Source: Thermaerobacter sp. FW80 (GTDB taxonomy: Bacteria > Bacillota > Sulfobacillia > Thermaerobacterales > Thermaerobacteraceae). From it: a stretch of DNA of 64,000 bases. Positions 11,529 through 19,410 of the stretch are shown in pieces. A program made the position numbers and the translations under genes. The notes beneath the pieces were generated by a model. The model saw only the letters and a program-made list of their open reading frames with translations. It was not told the DNA's origin and searched no databases. Where the stretch lies: contig NZ_CP037895.1 of assembly GCF_004634385.1 (NCBI RefSeq), positions 2,765,245 through 2,829,244 on the forward strand, written 5' to 3'. Position 1 is the stretch's first letter, and each line of letters opens with the position of its first letter.

Positions 11529-12029
11529 TCAACCACGGCCGCCCGGTTGCGCGCCGCGGGCGAAGGCATAGCACGCCTGCAGGATGGTCCACACGACCTC
11601 CAGCTCATCGTCGTCCCGGGGACCGTAGACCATCATCGCCGTGGGCGGCAGCCAGCCCCGGCGGGCAACCGGATGCAACTCGCCCCAACCCTTGGCGACC
11701 ACCACGCGGGCCGTGGCTTCAGGCAGCATGAGATGCAGGCTCCCGTCGTAGGGCGGGTGCAGGTGGGCGAACTCCCGGCCGATCATGAACGCCTCCGGTG
11801 GCCCCGCCGCCAGCTCCTCATCGAGGATGAAGGCCCGGGCTCCCGGAACGGAAATCCCGCTAGGCCCCACGCGCACCCCGGGCAGAGCCCGGGCCCGCTC
11901 AAACAGCGCCTCCTGCAGCCGGGGGGGAGCGTTCTGGTCCAGCTGCTGGTGGGGGTTCGCCGGGGTGGTCCGGGGCCGTGGACCCCGTCGTTCGGGCAAG
12001 GAATCGATTGCCGGCATGGATACCGCCAT
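11529..12029 (-). CDS. Luciferase-family (DUF5519-like) protein
   Basis: Soluble protein of 166 residues. The C-terminal half carries the family pattern REFAHLHPPYDGSLHLMLP, then GWGELHPVARRGWLPPTAMMVYGPR. Genes of this kind are annotated as luciferase-domain proteins, but their biochemical role is not known to me. Start ATG 12029 (MAVSMPAIDS) is preceded by a purine-rich GGGGGCC; ATG 12017 is an alternative. It lies downstream of the disulfide oxidoreductase gene, separated by a hairpin. Confidence 0.7.
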   Translation of the reverse strand: MAVSMPAIDSLPERRGPRPRTTPANPHQQLDQNAPPRLQEALFERARALPGVRVGPSGISVPGARAFILDEELAAGPPEAFMIGREFAHLHPPYDGSLHLMLPEATARVVVAKGWGELHPVARRGWLPPTAMMVYGPRDDDELEVVWTILQACYAFARGAQPGGRG

Positions 12030-12073
12030 CACCAGGCCCCCTTGTCCATGCCTACTCCACCTCGATACAGGTG

Positions 12074-12117
12074 ACCGGAGAGGGCAAGCCCGCGATCCGG
12101 CGAGAGCCCTCTCCGGT
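12074..12117 (-). terminator. Hairpin downstream of disulfide oxidoreductase gene
   Basis: ACCGGAGAGGGC and GCCCTCTCCGGT form a 12-base stem with a 20-base loop. It follows the minus-strand oxidoreductase by about 85 bases and precedes the luciferase-family gene. No U-tract is visible. Confidence 0.5.
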
Positions 12118-12200
12118 GGCTGCGGTTCGGCCCCTACGGGCCGGTCTAGCGGCAGCACCTACAGGTCGATCCAGCGGCAGGGCGGGCCCCTGCCGGAAGG

Positions 12201-12974
12201 TTACTGCCCCGGCCCGGCCGGTTCTTCCGTGCTTCCCGGCTGCCCGGGGTGCAGGTCCAGCGCCCGCCAGATGGCCGACCAGAGATAGTCCTCCGGCACC
12301 GCGCCCTCGAATGAGACACGGTCGTTGATCACCGTCTTGGGCACGGCGAATACCTGGTACTGCTGGGCCAGCTGCGGGTAGGAGGTGGCCTCCACGGCTT
12401 CGGCGGTCACCAGCGGGCTCTGCATGGCCAGGTTGATCGCGGAGCGCACGGCCCGCGGGCAATGCGGTCAGGTGGGGGTGAAGAAGACCCGCAGGTGAAC
12501 GGGCCGGCCCGCCTCGCCAAGCAGGGCCAGAGCTTCGGCCTGGTGACCGGCCTGGCTCCCCGCCCCGCCGGCAGCGGGTGCGTCGCCCCCGGCACCTTCA
12601 CCGCCGGCGGGCACTGGCGCCGAGGCCTCGATCAGCGCTTCGACCAGCGTCGCGAACTCGTAGCCGAGGGGCGGTCCGACGAACCGCACCCGGCCGCCGG
12701 CCCGGCCGTGGATCACCACCGTGGGCGGCCGCTCGACGCCCAGTTCCCTCGCCCGCTGGCTCTCCCGGTCGATGTCCCTGACCTGGAGGCGGATCGAAGG
12801 ATGAAGCTGGGCCAGCTCCTTCATCAGCTCGACCGTTTCCTCGCAGCCGGGACACTCGCGGCCGGGAACGAACAGCCGCATGTCACGGGTGAAGACCTCC
12901 ACATCGACGGGGCCCGCCAGGTCCTGGAGCCGTTCCTGCAGCACCTTCCGGTCTTGCTCGCGAATCAGCGCCAT
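12201..12974 (-). CDS. Protein disulfide oxidoreductase with in-frame TGA at second active site (candidate selenoprotein)
   Basis: Thermophile-type oxidoreductase made of two thioredoxin folds, 257 residues if the TGA at codon 169 is read through. Fold 1 has CPGC at residues 41-44 and the cis-Pro segment VERPPTVVIHG. Fold 2 begins HLRVFFTPT, then TGA, then PHCPRAVRSAINLA, and has a cis-Pro loop FAVPKTVIND. Family members have CPxC here, so TGA replaces exactly the first catalytic Cys. The frame is otherwise intact on both sides of the TGA. ATG 12974 follows GGAGG by 8 bases. A hairpin placed where bacterial SECIS elements occur follows the TGA. The alternatives are a TGC-to-TGA mutation or a sequencing error, giving a 168-residue truncated protein. 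Confidence 0.8.
12438..12457 (-). promoter_or_regulatory. Candidate bacterial SECIS hairpin
   Basis: In the mRNA, CGCGG (12457-12453) can pair with CCGCG (12442-12438), leaving a 10-base loop that begins with G. Fifteen bases separate the TGA from this loop, close to the spacing described for bacterial SECIS elements read by SelB. Short GC stems are common in this genome, so this is weak alone. Confidence 0.35.
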
Positions 12975-13462
12975 GCCATCGCCTCCGCTGCGGGGGCCAG
13001 CCCGAGCCCCGTCCCTGTCGGCGACGGGGCTCGTAGCCGGGTGTTTGCTTCCCCCGGCACGGCCCACCTTTCCACCAAGGACACCGGCGCATGTGGGCGC
13101 CGTCATGGCCGCGGCCGCCCGCACCTTCTTGTGACTCCCGCGCGTGACTTCCAGCCCCAGCATAGCCTGGGCGCGGAGGCGGCTCAAGGCACCACCGGCA
13201 CCGGGGAGGCGACCGCGACCCGGGCCCGGGAGTGCGCCCGGCTGCAACCGGATCCGCTACACGGTCAAGGTTGGTGCAGGCGCCGATCCGGCGGGTACAT
13301 GGCGTTCCGGTCGAGGGGCGTGTCGAGGTCGTCAGCTCCCATGACACGCCGGCCTGATTGACGCAACAGAATGACTCGCAGCCGTCCTGTGGAGTCCAGG
13401 CGGCCCCCACCTCGCACCTGTGGTGGGGACCTAGCTGTGTGGGTCGAACCGCCCGCCCCGTC
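12975..13462. other. Divergent intergenic region with leader hairpin
   Basis: No supported gene in these 490 bases. At 13003-13033 CGAGCCCCGTC and its complement form an 11-base stem in the presumed leader of the oxidoreductase mRNA. A second imperfect CCCCAC/GTGGGG hairpin lies near 13405-13430. The right end leads into the MerR-type promoter of the P-ATPase. Confidence 0.4.
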
Positions 13463-13494
13463 TTGACCTTCGAGTGGGCTCAAGGGTGTACATT
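13463..13494 (+). promoter_or_regulatory. MerR-type promoter with dyad operator
   Basis: TTGACC (13463-13468) and TACATT (13489-13494) are separated by 20 bases, longer than the usual 17, and between them lies the dyad ACCTTCGAG-tggg-CTCAAGGGT. Over-long spacers with a central dyad are the hallmark of promoters activated by MerR-family proteins through DNA untwisting. A MerR-family gene is the second gene of this operon. The start codon follows only 18 bases after the -10. Confidence 0.8.
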
Positions 13495-13512
13495 GGCGGC
13501 GAGGTGGTTCCC

Positions 13513-15777
13513 ATGGCGACGCTCCACGTCCGGGTCGGGGGCATGCATTGCTCCCTCTGCACCCGGTCGATCCAGCAGGCGCTGCGCCGCCTGGACGGCG
13601 TCGACGACGCCCGCGTCAGCCTGGCCCACGAAGAGGTCCTCGTGCGCTACGATCCCGTTCGGGTGCCGGTGGCGACCCTCACGGACACCTTGCGCGACCT
13701 GGGTTTTACCGTACGCGATCCCGATCGCAGCGACGTGTTCGCCGAGGAAGAACGAGAGCTGGCGCGAGCCCGGCGCATCGCGGCCGCCACGGGCAGCCTG
13801 GTCATCGCGGCGACGGCGCTCATGGTCGCGAGCCGCTGGGGTCAAGTCTCTCCCGACCTTCATGCTGTGATCCCGGGGGCCCAGGCGGTGCTCGCCCTGC
13901 TGGCTTCCATAGGCCCGGCGCGCTTCGTGTACCGCAACGCGTGGCAGTCGCTGCGGCGGCGGATCCTCAACCAGGACGTGCTGGCGGCCGCGGCGGCCCT
14001 GGCCGGACTCGTTGGCGGAGTCGCCGGGCTGGCCGACCCGCGCTTGCCGGGCGGTGCCTTCTTCGCCGCCACCACCTACATCCTGGCCTTCCACGCCGTG
14101 GGGGGTTACGCCTCGGTCCTGGTCCACGTGCGGGCGTCCCAGTCGGTCCGCCGGCTGCTGTCGCTACAGCCCGCAACGGCCCGGCGCCTGGATGAACGCG
14201 GCAACGAGGAAGAGGTGCCGGTGGACGAACTCCGCCCGGGGGACCGGGTGCGCATCCGGCCGGGGGAGCGGATCCCGGTCGACGGGCGCATCCTCCACGG
14301 TTCCACGGCCGTTGACGAACGCCTGGTCACCGGCGAGCCGGTCCCCCGCGACTGCCGGCCAGGCGACGAAGTCGTCGGGGGCTCCATCAACCTGACAGGC
14401 GGGATCGAGGTGGAGGTGACCCGCACCGGCGACGAGTCGTTCCTGCACCGGGTAGCGCGCCAGGTGGCCGAAGCCCGAGCTATGAAGCCGGGGATCCTGC
14501 GCCTGGTGGACCGGGTGCTCCTGGTCTACGTGCCGGTGATCTTCGCCCTGGCCGCCGCTGGCACGCTGTTCTGGCTGCTCGTACCGTGGCTGGCCGGCGG
14601 GCGACCGGACGGGGTACGGGCCACCTATACCGCCCTAGGCGTGCTGGTCATGGGGTATCCGTGTGCCCTGGGCATGGCGACGCCCCTGGCCATCGTCCGG
14701 GCGAGCGGCGAGGCCGCGGCCCGCGGAATCCTCATGCGCTCCGGCGAGGCCTTTCAGGTCTTCCGCCTAGTGGACACGGTGGTGTTCGACAAGACGGGAA
14801 CCTTGACGGAAGGCAAACCCCAGGTGGTGGCCGTGGCGGCGGCGAAGGGGTTCATGCTGGTCCAACCCGGAGCTTCCGCACCGGGTGACCCGGAAGCGCA
14901 GGTGCTCACCCTGGCCGCTGCCGCCGAACGCCTCTCCGAGCATCCTTTGGGCCGGGCCATCGTCGACGCCGCCACCGGGCGGGGGTCGGAACTCCCCGAG
15001 GCCGAAGCCCTCCGGGCCGAACCGGGGCGGGGCATCGTCGCCCGGGTGGACGGACACCAGATCCTGGTCGGCAACCAGCGACTTCTGCATGAGCAAGGGA
15101 TCCGGCAGGATGAAGCCATGGCGCGTTGGGTGGACCACCAGCACGAGCTCGGGCGCACCGTGGTGTACGTGGCCGTCGACGGACAGCTGGCCGGCGCCAT
15201 CGCCCTGGCCGACCGGCCGAGGGAAGACGCGGCTGCGGCGGTTGCGGCCCTGCGCCGACAGGGACTGCAGACCGTCATTGCCAGCGGTGACCACGAAGGC
15301 GCCGTGGCCGCAACGGCCCGCGAGCTCGGTGTCGACGCCTTCCACGCCCGCCTCCTGCCGGAAGACAAGCGCCGGCTCGTCCTGCAACTGCAACGAGAGG
15401 GCCGGAAGGTGGCCTTCGTCGGTGACGGGATCAACGACGCCCCGTCCCTGATGCAGGCTGACGTGGGCATCGCCGTCGGGGCGGGAACGGACATCGCCAT
15501 CGAATCGGCCGACGTCGTGCTCCCAGCGCGCCGCCTCCCCGCCGTCGCGGAGGCTCGCGCCCTGGCGACGGCCAGCTACGGGCTGACCTTGCGCAATGTG
15601 CTGCTGGCACTGGCCGTGAACGCGACCGGCGTGCTCGCCTCGCTCTCGGGCCGCGTTCATCCGATGTGGGCGATGCTGGCCATGGCGGTATCGCTGACAC
15701 TGGTTTTGGGCCACACCCTGGCCACCCGGTTGCCCGTGACAGCGGAAAGTACCGACGCGAGCGAGGTGAGGCAGTGA
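13513..15777 (+). CDS. Heavy-metal P1B-ATPase with HMA domain and YPC motif
   Basis: Metal-exporting ATPase of 754 residues. An N-terminal metal-binding domain (GMHCSLC, residues 10-16) precedes the membrane domain. Actuator TGEP is near residue 273, the phosphorylated Asp is D426 in DKTGTLTEG, the P1B nucleotide motif is SEHPLGRAI, and the hinge is GDGINDAPS. The transmembrane metal motif reads GYPCALGMATP (Y382-P383-C384) instead of CPC, and the last helices lack the MxxSS...N pattern of CopA, so metal specificity is unclear. I use ATG 13513, not the upstream ATG 13474, because the latter lies within the promoter. It overlaps the MerR gene as TGATG. Confidence 0.92.
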   Translation: MATLHVRVGGMHCSLCTRSIQQALRRLDGVDDARVSLAHEEVLVRYDPVRVPVATLTDTLRDLGFTVRDPDRSDVFAEEERELARARRIAAATGSLVIAATALMVASRWGQVSPDLHAVIPGAQAVLALLASIGPARFVYRNAWQSLRRRILNQDVLAAAAALAGLVGGVAGLADPRLPGGAFFAATTYILAFHAVGGYASVLVHVRASQSVRRLLSLQPATARRLDERGNEEEVPVDELRPGDRVRIRPGERIPVDGRILHGSTAVDERLVTGEPVPRDCRPGDEVVGGSINLTGGIEVEVTRTGDESFLHRVARQVAEARAMKPGILRLVDRVLLVYVPVIFALAAAGTLFWLLVPWLAGGRPDGVRATYTALGVLVMGYPCALGMATPLAIVRASGEAAARGILMRSGEAFQVFRLVDTVVFDKTGTLTEGKPQVVAVAAAKGFMLVQPGASAPGDPEAQVLTLAAAAERLSEHPLGRAIVDAATGRGSELPEAEALRAEPGRGIVARVDGHQILVGNQRLLHEQGIRQDEAMARWVDHQHELGRTVVYVAVDGQLAGAIALADRPREDAAAAVAALRRQGLQTVIASGDHEGAVAATARELGVDAFHARLLPEDKRRLVLQLQREGRKVAFVGDGINDAPSLMQADVGIAVGAGTDIAIESADVVLPARRLPAVAEARALATASYGLTLRNVLLALAVNATGVLASLSGRVHPMWAMLAMAVSLTLVLGHTLATRLPVTAESTDASEVRQ

Positions 15778-16286
15778 TGCTGCGCATTGGCGAAGCGGCG
15801 CGGCAGGCAGGGGTCTCGCCGCATGCGTTGCGTTATTATGAATCCCTTGGCCTGATCCGCTGCCGGCGAAGCGGTTCCGGTTACCGCTTGTACGACCGGG
15901 AAACCCTGGAACGGGTGCGCTTCATCCGGCGAGCGGCGCAGCTGGGTTTCACCCTCGAGGAGATCGCGCAGATCTTGCAGCTCCGTGACGAGGGCCGGGC
16001 CCCCTGTAGCCAGGTGGTGGCGTGGCTGGATGAGAAGATCGAACACTTGAACGCGCAGATCCGCATCCTCACCGGGCTTCGTGCAGAACTCGTCGCCCTG
16101 CGGTCCCAGGCGCCAGCCGTGCCGGCGGATCCCTCCGGCTATTCCTCGGGCTATTGTGCCCTTCTTGAGGGACGGGCTGGCCCGATCCCGGCAGCCGCAA
16201 CCAGGCCGAGCGACCATGGGCGGGCCCGGAGCCCATCGCGGGCGCACCCCCTCAGGCGGAGGCACGGCAGGCAGGAGGGCAGGTGA
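15777..16286 (+). CDS. MerR-family metal-responsive regulator
   Basis: Transcription activator of 169 residues. The N-terminal winged helix has IGEAARQAGVSPHALRYYESLGLI and YDRETLERVRFIRRAAQLGFTLEEIAQIL. A dimerisation helix follows, then Cys in RAPCSQV and GYCALLE at the positions that bind metal in ZntR/CadR/MerR relatives. ATG 15777 overlaps the ATPase stop. The last ~35 residues are basic and low in complexity because the frame runs into a dispersed repeat; true family members end near CALLE. It most likely controls the promoter at 13463-13494. Confidence 0.92.
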   Translation: MLRIGEAARQAGVSPHALRYYESLGLIRCRRSGSGYRLYDRETLERVRFIRRAAQLGFTLEEIAQILQLRDEGRAPCSQVVAWLDEKIEHLNAQIRILTGLRAELVALRSQAPAVPADPSGYSSGYCALLEGRAGPIPAAATRPSDHGRARSPSRAHPLRRRHGRQEGR

Positions 16287-16340
16287 GGTACGGAGCCGCC
16301 CCTCCTGCCCCCTGCACCGCACCGTGGCCGGCCCTTCTAC
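16216..16340. repeat. Dispersed GC-rich repeat, copy B, with terminator-like hairpin
   Basis: Shares ordered blocks with 11256-11402. It includes GGCAGGAGGG (16269 on) and CCCCTCCTGCC (16300 region) that can pair as a strong hairpin between the convergent MerR and lipoprotein genes. The first 70 bases are read through as the odd C-terminus of the MerR protein. Confidence 0.55.
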
Positions 16341-16834
16341 CGCAATGTGCCCGTCTCACCGGGGTGGAGGTTCGGCCGCAGGACGACGAACCGGCCCTGG
16401 TATTCCGCCGCGACGGCTTCCGCCACGTCCACACCTTGCAGCGCGTAGATGGGCGTCCCTGCGTCAAGGAAGTTGGAATCGCCGTCTTGTACGTCCTGCT
16501 CGTGGTCCAACTTGCGCTCGACACGGGCGATGACGCCGGCCAGCCGGTCCTCCGTGACCGGCGGCTCGTCGCTTAACAGGTAGATGGTGCCCTGGATCTT
16601 GACCAGAGGGCCGATCCAGTTGGCGCTCGAAACCGCCGCCGCCCCATCCTCCCCTGCGCCCTGGCCTGCACCCGGCGATACCGAACCGACTCGCTCGCCG
16701 CCACCGGCTTGGGCTCCGCCACACCCTGCAAGAGCTAGGGTAAGGGCGAAAACACCCAGCACGATGCCGGCCATCGCATACCGGCGGCCTCGCTCTGGCG
16801 GCAAGTGTCGCCGCCCGTGGCACCACGTACGCAT
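16337..16834 (-). CDS. Putative lipoprotein, unknown
   Basis: Protein of 165 residues with a basic N-region, a hydrophobic stretch (IVLGVFALTLALAGC) ending in a lipobox, then a Gly-rich spacer. The mature part has KIQGTIYLLSDEPPVTEDRLAGVIARV and ends with RFVVLRPNLHPGETGTL. It resembles small secreted beta-rich DUF3221-like proteins but I cannot assign it firmly. Start ATG 16834 follows GGGAGGTGAG. It lies between two metal operons; no metal ligands stand out. Confidence 0.7.
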   Translation of the reverse strand: MRTWCHGRRHLPPERGRRYAMAGIVLGVFALTLALAGCGGAQAGGGERVGSVSPGAGQGAGEDGAAAVSSANWIGPLVKIQGTIYLLSDEPPVTEDRLAGVIARVERKLDHEQDVQDGDSNFLDAGTPIYALQGVDVAEAVAAEYQGRFVVLRPNLHPGETGTLR

Positions 16835-16963
16835 ACGCTCACCTCCCAGGCTCCCGGCAGGGCGCCGCCTTCCTGAAGCAAGGTACAGGCCGCGGGCCGC
16901 GCCGGCGCATCACTGCCCTCTCGACGTACATCCAGGGCGAAGAGTTCCCGCCGCCGGTCCTGG

Positions 16964-17013
16964 TTGACGCAATGAGGTTAATGAGTCATAGTTACATTGA
17001 AATATTTAAATAT
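16964..17013 (+). promoter_or_regulatory. Promoter and AT-rich operator of the arsR-merA operon
   Basis: TTGACG (16964-16969) and CATAGT (16987-16992) are 17 bases apart. Immediately downstream lies ATATTTAAATAT (17002-17013), a perfect 12-base palindrome inside ATTGAAATATTTAAATATG. Such AT-rich dyads overlapping the start site are typical ArsR/SmtB operators. The AT-rich patch stands out from the GC-rich surroundings. Confidence 0.75.
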
Positions 17014-17027
17014 GTTGGGGTGGCATC

Positions 17028-17417
17028 ATGACACACCTCGGAGTACCCCACACCAAACCGCAAGCGGAAGAGTCTGAACAACGCCAGCTGGAGATCCGTG
17101 CCAAATTCTTCGATGGCCTGGCCAACCCAACGCGGCTTCGCATCGTTGAGCTGTTGCTCGATCGCGGTGAACTGAACGTCAGCCAGCTGGTCGAGGCGAC
17201 GGGCGTTTCCCAGGGTCAGGTTTCCAATCAGCTGGCATGCCTCAAATGGTGCGGTTACGTGACATCGCGGTCGGAGGGCCGCTACGTCTACTACCGGGTC
17301 ACGGACCCTCGCATCCGGACGCTGGTCGAACTGGCCCGGCAGATCGTGGCGGATAACGCCGAGCAAATCCGCGCGTGCACCCACCTGAGCCTCTCCGTGG
17401 ATCGGGAGGGTTACTAA
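17028..17417 (+). CDS. ArsR/SmtB-family metal sensor (CmtR-like)
   Basis: Repressor of 129 residues that releases DNA when it binds metal. The winged helix has FDGLANPTRLRIVELLL and VSQLVEATGVSQGQVSNQLACLKWCGYV. Cys71 and Cys75 in the recognition helix (CLKWC) and Cys117 in the C-terminal helix (RACTHL) match the Cd/Pb site of CmtR. Because mercuric reductase follows in the same operon, Hg(II) may be the true inducer, as for ArsR-type mercury repressors of Streptomyces. The 200 bases before merA contain a tandem CAAACCGCCTTG pair and no convincing gene. Confidence 0.92.
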   Translation: MTHLGVPHTKPQAEESEQRQLEIRAKFFDGLANPTRLRIVELLLDRGELNVSQLVEATGVSQGQVSNQLACLKWCGYVTSRSEGRYVYYRVTDPRIRTLVELARQIVADNAEQIRACTHLSLSVDREGY

Positions 17418-17613
17418 TGGCACCTAACCGCAGACGGCAGCTTAGACCTCAAGGGTCGCTGGCGACCGCCGGTTTGAACCCGGGCTCTACCATAAACCGC
17501 AAACCGCCTTGCAAACCGCCTTGCCGGCGCCGCTCCCGTGGCGTGGCACACGGGGTGGATGCGGCGCCGGCGCCAGACCGTTGCCTGGGCGGTCGGACAG
17601 GAGGAAGGTCACA

Positions 17614-19410
17614 TTGTCACCCTTGAAGCCGGGCCGCTACCACCTCGCGATTGAGGGCATGACCTGTGCACACTGCGCTACCAGGGTCCAGCGGGCTCTG
17701 GAACAGGCCGGGGCACGGGCTGTGGAAGCCGACTTCCGGCGCGGTGAGGCGGTCTTCGACCTGCCGCAACCTGCCGATGCGGAAGACCTGCGCGCTGCGG
17801 TCCGGGAAGCCGGGTACGAGCCCGGGGCTTTAAAGTCGCTGGAGCCCCAGCCGGCATCGGGGGGTGGTCCTGCGCAGGTGGTCCCAGCCCCGGGGGGTGG
17901 TCTGCCGGTTCAAACCCCTCCCGCTCCCCATGTCCCGGCCACGGCGGTCCCTGCCACTGCCGGGGTCACGACCGCCGCCGGAGCGAACCCTGGTGAGGCG
18001 TACGATCTGGTCATCGTCGGCTCCGGGTCGGCGGCCTTCGCCGCGGCCATCGAGGCCACGCAAGCCGGCGCCCGGGTGGCCATGGTCGAACGAGGGGTGG
18101 TGGGGGGAACCTGCGTCAACATCGGCTGCGTGCCGTCCAAGACCCTTTTGCGGGCCGCGGAGGTCTACTTCCGCGCCCGGCACCACCCCTTCGCCGGCAT
18201 CGCCACCCAGGCCGGTCCGGTCGACCTGCCGCTGCTCATCGGTCAGAAGAACGAGCTGGTCTCGCGGCTGCGGTACGAGAAGTACGAATGCCTTGTCGGT
18301 ACGTACGGCTTCGATCTGGTGCGCGGGGAAGGCCGGTTTGTCGACGCCCACATCCTTGAGGTCGTCGATCCGGCCAGCGGCTCGGTGACCCATACCCTCC
18401 GGGCGAAGGCGTTTCTCATCGCCACCGGCGCCTCCCCGGCCATCCCCGAGGTGCCGGGGCTCGAGGCCGTCGACTTCCTCACCAGCACCTCCGCCCTCAA
18501 CTTGCGACGGCTGCCCGAGAGCGTGGCCGTCATCGGCGCAGGGTACATCGCCCTGGAGCTGGGCCAGTTCTTCCGGCACCTGGGCGCTCGGGTGACCATC
18601 ATGCAGCGCAGCCCCGAGCTCCTGAAAACGTACGACCCGGAGATCCGGGACACCGTGCGCCGCATGCTGGACGAACACGGCATCGAGGTGCTGACAGGGG
18701 TTCGCTACCTCGGGGTCGATCAGGCGGGCGGGATGAAACGGGTACGGCTGGAGGTCGCGGGGGCCGAACGAGCCGTCGAGGCGGAGGCCCTGCTGGTTGC
18801 CACGGGCCGGCGCCCCAACACCGCGGCACTTCAGCTCGACAAGGCTGGCGTCCGCACCGGGTCCCGCGGCGAGGTGGTGGTCGATGACCAGCTGCGGACC
18901 AGCGTCCCCCACATCTTCGCGGCCGGCGACGTGACCATGGGGCCCCAGTTCGTCTATGTGGCCGCCTACCAGGGGGCCCTGGCTGCCCGGAACGCCGTCC
19001 GCGGCGCGGGCGAGCGGGTCGATCTCCGTGCCGTCCCGCGGGTCACCTTCACCACCCCGGCCATTGCCAGCGTCGGCCTGACGGAAGAACAGGCCCGGGC
19101 CGCCGGCCGGCCGGTGCGGGTGTCGGTCCTCCCGCTGGACGCCGTGCCGCGGGCCCTGGCCAATCGCGAGACCACCGGGGTATTCAAGCTTGTCGCCGAC
19201 GCCGGCACCGGCCGGCTGCTGGGCGCCCACGTCGTCGCGGAGAATGCCGGCGACGTGATCTATGCCGCCACCCTGGCCGTGAAGTTCGGGCTGACGGTCG
19301 AAGACCTGCGCTCGACCCTGGCGCCGTATCTGACCATGGCCGAGGGGTTGAAGCTGGCGGCCCTGGGCTTCGAAACCGACGTATCCCGGCTTTCCTGTTG
19401 TGCAGGATAG
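17614..19410 (+). CDS. merA: Mercuric reductase
   Basis: Flavoenzyme of 598 residues that reduces Hg(II) to Hg(0) with NADPH in the cytosol. Domains: an HMA domain with GMTCAHC near residue 15, a Pro/Ala-rich linker, an FAD domain (DLVIVGSGSAAFAAAIEA), the redox-active pair C167/C172 in GGTCVNIGCVPSK, an NAD(P)H domain (AVIGAGYIALELGQFF) and a dimerisation domain ending in vicinal C595-C596, the Hg-binding pair that separates MerA from lipoamide dehydrogenase. I start at TTG 17614 because GGAGG lies 9 bases upstream and the HMA domain begins at once; the earlier ATG 17509 would add a low-complexity leader. No merT/merP transport genes are present. Confidence 0.95.
   Translation: MSPLKPGRYHLAIEGMTCAHCATRVQRALEQAGARAVEADFRRGEAVFDLPQPADAEDLRAAVREAGYEPGALKSLEPQPASGGGPAQVVPAPGGGLPVQTPPAPHVPATAVPATAGVTTAAGANPGEAYDLVIVGSGSAAFAAAIEATQAGARVAMVERGVVGGTCVNIGCVPSKTLLRAAEVYFRARHHPFAGIATQAGPVDLPLLIGQKNELVSRLRYEKYECLVGTYGFDLVRGEGRFVDAHILEVVDPASGSVTHTLRAKAFLIATGASPAIPEVPGLEAVDFLTSTSALNLRRLPESVAVIGAGYIALELGQFFRHLGARVTIMQRSPELLKTYDPEIRDTVRRMLDEHGIEVLTGVRYLGVDQAGGMKRVRLEVAGAERAVEAEALLVATGRRPNTAALQLDKAGVRTGSRGEVVVDDQLRTSVPHIFAAGDVTMGPQFVYVAAYQGALAARNAVRGAGERVDLRAVPRVTFTTPAIASVGLTEEQARAAGRPVRVSVLPLDAVPRALANRETTGVFKLVADAGTGRLLGAHVVAENAGDVIYAATLAVKFGLTVEDLRSTLAPYLTMAEGLKLAALGFETDVSRLSCCAG

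Follow-up and report, generated by a model that had tools for sequence, protein, structure and literature searches.

Does the in-frame TGA at codon 169 of a thioredoxin-fold gene in the window (the whole analyzed stretch of 64,000 nucleotides) end translation, or does it encode selenocysteine (Sec)? The reading frame lies on the minus strand (12974..12201), starts with ATG at 12974 and has its natural stop ending at 12201. The ordinary six-frame list of open reading frames splits the gene in two, one frame that ends at 12468 and another of 82 amino acids (12201..12449). With TGA translated as Sec (U), the product has 257 amino acids with U at residue 169, in the context FFTPT-U-PHC-PRAVRSA. 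We consider it nearly certain, at a probability of about 0.96, that this is a selenoprotein gene for a two-module protein disulfide oxidoreductase (PDO) with SelB-inserted Sec at residue 169. The features of the reconstructed gene are:

12201..12974, minus strand: predicted selenoprotein gene, a PDO of the TIGR02187 family with U169, 257 amino acids plus stop (translation with TGA as U, TIGR02187.2 score, closest structures)
12468..12470, minus strand: putative Sec-encoding TGA, residue 169, first position of UxxC (invariant Cys in homologs; TGA kept in G001, G003 and G004)
12459..12461, minus strand: TGC for C172, predicted resolving Cys of the U-P-H-C site (translation; invariant in alignments)
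12438..12457, minus strand: bSECIS-like hairpin, stem CGCGGGC / GC-(u)-CCGCG, loop CGUGC (fold; register shared with U-type genes)
12843..12854, minus strand: N-terminal redox site CPGC, residues 41-44 (translation; CxxC is common and lost in some homologs)

The preliminary description had placed the TGA at the first Cys of a second active site, U-P-H-C at residues 169-172, in a frame open for 168 codons before it and 88 after. Translation and the alignment of homologs agree with both points: codon 169 (12470-12468) occupies the first catalytic Cys position of the C-terminal CxxC motif (TPT-U-PHC). The read-through product scores 198.3 bits against the NCBIfam model TIGR02187.2 (PDO_seleno_TRX), above the cut-off of 185, and all 14 aligned relatives match the same model. 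The protein is far under the AhpF family cut-off in the profile search, and the PDOs of Pyrococcus and Aquifex are the nearest sequences of solved structure. The AlphaFold model (mean pLDDT 88.4, pTM 0.85) has two thioredoxin-fold modules with a linker of low confidence between them, near residues 120-140, and residue 169 sits between a strand (159-165) and a helix (172-185). The top ten Foldseek matches include PDOs of Aquifex, Pyrococcus and Aeropyrum. Given the two motifs (CPGC at 41-44 and UPHC at 169-172), the predicted fold and the PDB matches, the product is most likely a tandem thioredoxin-fold PDO with predicted disulfide activity.

If the TGA were a true stop, the locus would be a pseudogene or would encode only an N-terminal thioredoxin domain of 168 residues. 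A standard gene caller would indeed end the gene at the TGA, and the N-terminal part by itself still matches the family, although with only 92 bits. However, comparison with relatives shows selection on the protein encoded beyond the TGA. When the window gene is set against that of G004, 65 of 88 residues after the TGA are identical and 33 of 62 base changes fall at third positions; before the TGA the counts are 123 of 163 residues and 78 of 133 changes. The third-position bias on both sides indicates that protein-level selection continues past the TGA. Moreover, many distant homologs, two paralogs in the genome among them, also have TGA on the column of the invariant catalytic Cys, and the genome has a complete Sec machinery. 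Termination at this codon is thus very unlikely.

Homologs of this class carry either U or C at the codon-169 column, inside a strongly conserved TPT[UC]PxCP motif. In the aligned set the C-terminal site is invariant and the N-terminal CxxC is missing from some members, a pattern that fits the placement of Sec at the main site. Ordinary homologs have CPHC or CPYC at the C-terminal site, and just such a motif would be encoded if the TGA were a sequencing or assembly error and the real codon TGC. This doubt, already voiced with the preliminary description as a possible outcome of resequencing 12468-12470, is contradicted by independent genomes. The same TGA is kept at codon 169 of the orthologs in three other assemblies, G001, G003 and G004 (protein identity 99%, 98% and 74-75%, respectively), and it also occurs in other PDO paralogs. 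Since one of these proteins is only about 75% identical to that of the window, the chance of a misread TGC is practically negligible. The retained TGA, together with Cys homologs at the same column, is the outcome that the preliminary description had proposed to look for by aligning orthologs.

The two paralogs, both of them Sec-type PDO genes that have TGA at this codon too, are located near C1:644 kb (L039, G000:C1:644179-645018) and C1:1118 kb (L040, G000:C1:1118406-1119065). L039 appears to adjoin lepA- and hemN-like frames, as judged by eye from the translation. UxxU sites were considered for paralogs with two in-frame TGA codons and rejected, because in these genes the second TGA simply closes the frame as its natural stop. 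A divergent frame elsewhere (L052, G054:C35), in which TSPGU-TTC replaces TPTUPxC, is possibly another Sec-containing relative.

The machinery for Sec synthesis and insertion, a search for which the preliminary description had called, is complete in the genome. It includes selA (583.5 bits, C1:2255326-2256684), selB (330 bits, C1:2363144-2364253), selD (397 bits, C1:1820371-1821306) and tRNA-Sec with the anticodon UCA (83.9 bits, C1:1242970-1243062). The selD gene carries an in-frame TGA of its own within an LTGKGGUGCK motif. Among the 61 genomes searched, 30 have a PDO gene. U-type PDOs were found in 23 genomes, all of which have selA above the cut-off (23/23); among the seven genomes with only C-type PDOs, selA is present in four and lacking in three. 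The association between U-type PDO and selA is significant by Fisher's test (one-sided p=0.0086) on counts that ignore phylogeny. A wider contig scan of 80 named loci gave U at 9 of 75 recognized sites, a share that under-samples Sec forms, because the search patterns had Cys in the motif. The U sites belong to Rokubacteria, Ignavibacterium, Ktedonobacterales, Gemmatimonadetes, Bryobacteraceae, other Chloroflexi and Bacillota MAG-73, the last of which is probably G032, already included in the genome counts. No close relative of the PDO was found in the plasmid and phage records searched.

The UGA could in principle be read in another way, by near-cognate suppression or under a reassigned code (e.g. 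as Trp or Cys), with no Sec involved. We found no support for such a reading, although UGA read as Cys would give an active site as well. Several PDO genes, including paralogs in this genome, seem to use TGA as their natural stop, and UGA is therefore not generally reassigned. The presence of tRNA-Sec(UCA), selA, selB and selD, and the co-occurrence of U-type PDO genes with selA, also argue against such decoding, which we regard as highly improbable. On the evidence bearing on each of them, a pseudogene, a sequencing error and UGA reassignment were all rejected.

The remaining component of the Sec reading is a bSECIS element downstream of the UGA. Published limits for such elements are a stem of 4-16 bp, a loop of 3-9 nt and a spacing of 16-37 nt from the UGA (PMC13188914), with G in the first two loop positions and a minimum free energy of at most -7.5 kcal/mol (PMC13188914). 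The CGCGG/CCGCG stem of 5 bp named in the preliminary description exists, but its 10-nt loop, starting 15 nt past the TGA, is just outside these limits. Two more G-C pairs can form inside it, which extends the stem to 7 bp with a single bulged U and leaves the loop CGUGC with G in the second position; this extended hairpin (5-nt loop, spacing 17 nt, -11.3 kcal/mol) lies within all of the limits. Compared with shuffled sequences it is at chance level for a stretch so rich in G+C (z -0.46), and a different structure results when the whole 42-nt stretch from the UGA onward is folded. The case for the hairpin is therefore comparative.

In most of the class's U-type genes, a hairpin of 6-8 bp with a loop of 3-5 nt and G in the first two loop positions lies 17-18 nt after the UGA. 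The median hairpin score is 19 in U genes versus 6 in C genes (Mann-Whitney p=4e-5). Against shuffles of synonymous codons, the real sequence scored higher at p<0.05 in 15 of the 26 U genes and in one of the 10 C genes. For the clade of the window gene, L012, L013, L039 and L041, the synonymous-shuffle p is about 0.4-0.5, on a score that allows no bulge. With 18 U genes placed in a common register, pairing is seen in 85.7% of cells, and three pairs show double (compensatory) changes, a number reached by none of 500 shuffles, which do not keep relatedness. Sliding the register by one gives a similar covariation score, yet only 49% of cells are paired. By these comparisons, the predicted hairpin is conserved among Sec-type genes and mostly absent from Cys-type genes.

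The predicted SECIS shape differs among members of the PDO family. Three U-type genes (L033, L036 and L037) have the hairpin in a shifted register, with the loop GGC and a spacing of 17, and the U-type gene L023 has a different hairpin further downstream. The C-type gene L015 comes from the same genus as L023. Just upstream of the codon the two differ at 30 of 150 bases, compared with none of 50 at positions 6-55 (0-based from the first base of the codon), and L015 probably retains a fossil SECIS after a recent Sec-to-Cys change.

In sum, the proposal of Sec at this TGA is supported by the machinery, the conserved TGA, the Cys-aligned homologs and the conserved hairpin, and neither of the two results that the preliminary description had named as refuting it was obtained. 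Sec insertion, redox chemistry and the role in the cell are our inferences from knowledge of the family. SelB carrying Sec-tRNA-Sec would bind the short hairpin just past the UGA, and Sec would be put in at residue 169 in place of termination. Thioredoxin-fold enzymes act through an attacking residue and then a resolving Cys. Sec169 would be the nucleophile of the C-terminal UPHC site and C172 would resolve, the catalytic cycle passing through a Sec169-C172 selenenylsulfide. In the cell the enzyme would most likely make, break or rearrange disulfides of cytosolic proteins, or else supply a client with electrons taken from a partner resembling thioredoxin reductase. It is very unlikely that under selenium limitation the gene yields a stable single-thioredoxin-fold protein, consisting of the N-terminal 168 residues with CPGC only and having a function of its own. 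If so, selenium supply would switch the PDO between one-site and two-site forms.

The gene neighborhood varies between close relatives. A segment of ~6.2 kb (13210-19386), which includes a heavy-metal P-type ATPase (13474-15777), is absent from the sister genomes L139 and L140; both flanks of the missing segment are about 92-98% identical to the window there, and the PDO gene is kept. The comparison indicates a recent insertion or deletion directly beside the PDO gene. The copper-type ATPase was rejected as a functional context of the PDO, since this segment (13.2-19.4 kb) is missing in two sister genomes that retain the PDO. A neighboring gene on the minus strand (window 11529-12158) encodes a 'Luciferase domain' (PF17648, 87 bits).

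With the Sec reading, the PDO gene is no longer split or truncated, as it would be by automatic annotation. The lineage would use selenium in three PDO-type enzymes, and the general picture of selenoproteins is unchanged. Both mechanism and family are known, and the name of the NCBI model already contains 'seleno'. As far as we could tell only this member is new, and the public annotation of the genome may already have it. Among the papers searched, none deals with Thermaerobacter together with selenocysteine. PDO is regarded as the key protein of cytosolic disulfide formation in thermophiles (PMC3177088), which makes Sec variants that have close Cys relatives a natural system for studying what Sec adds.

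The family has figured among recognized selenoproteins since the early 2000s. Tables of prokaryotic selenoproteins list a 'Homolog of AhpF N-terminal domain (Grx-like domain protein)' with TIGR02187 and UxxC, ABB15282.1 (PMC9312934, PMC13188914), and a survey from 2006 names the AhpF-N-terminal homolog for Carboxydothermus hydrogenoformans and Symbiobacterium thermophilum (PMC1794560). The window PDO shares the NCBIfam family and the UxxC motif with selenoproteins of the ABB15282.1 type. It differs from the known members in its origin from another G+C-rich lineage of Bacillota with three Sec-type PDO genes, in the greater length of its interdomain linker (about residues 119-155) and in having UPHC, whereas UPYC is commoner. 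The Cys-type PDOs of Pyrococcus furiosus (1a8l), Aquifex aeolicus (2ayt) and Aeropyrum pernix (2hls) likewise consist of two thioredoxin-fold modules fused together (27-31% identity, TM-score 0.72-0.74 normalized to the query), with Cys in place of the predicted Sec. The N-terminal domain of AhpF also shares the two thioredoxin folds and matches structurally (6il7, 1zyn), but there they are part of a flavoprotein, whereas the window PDO is a stand-alone protein.
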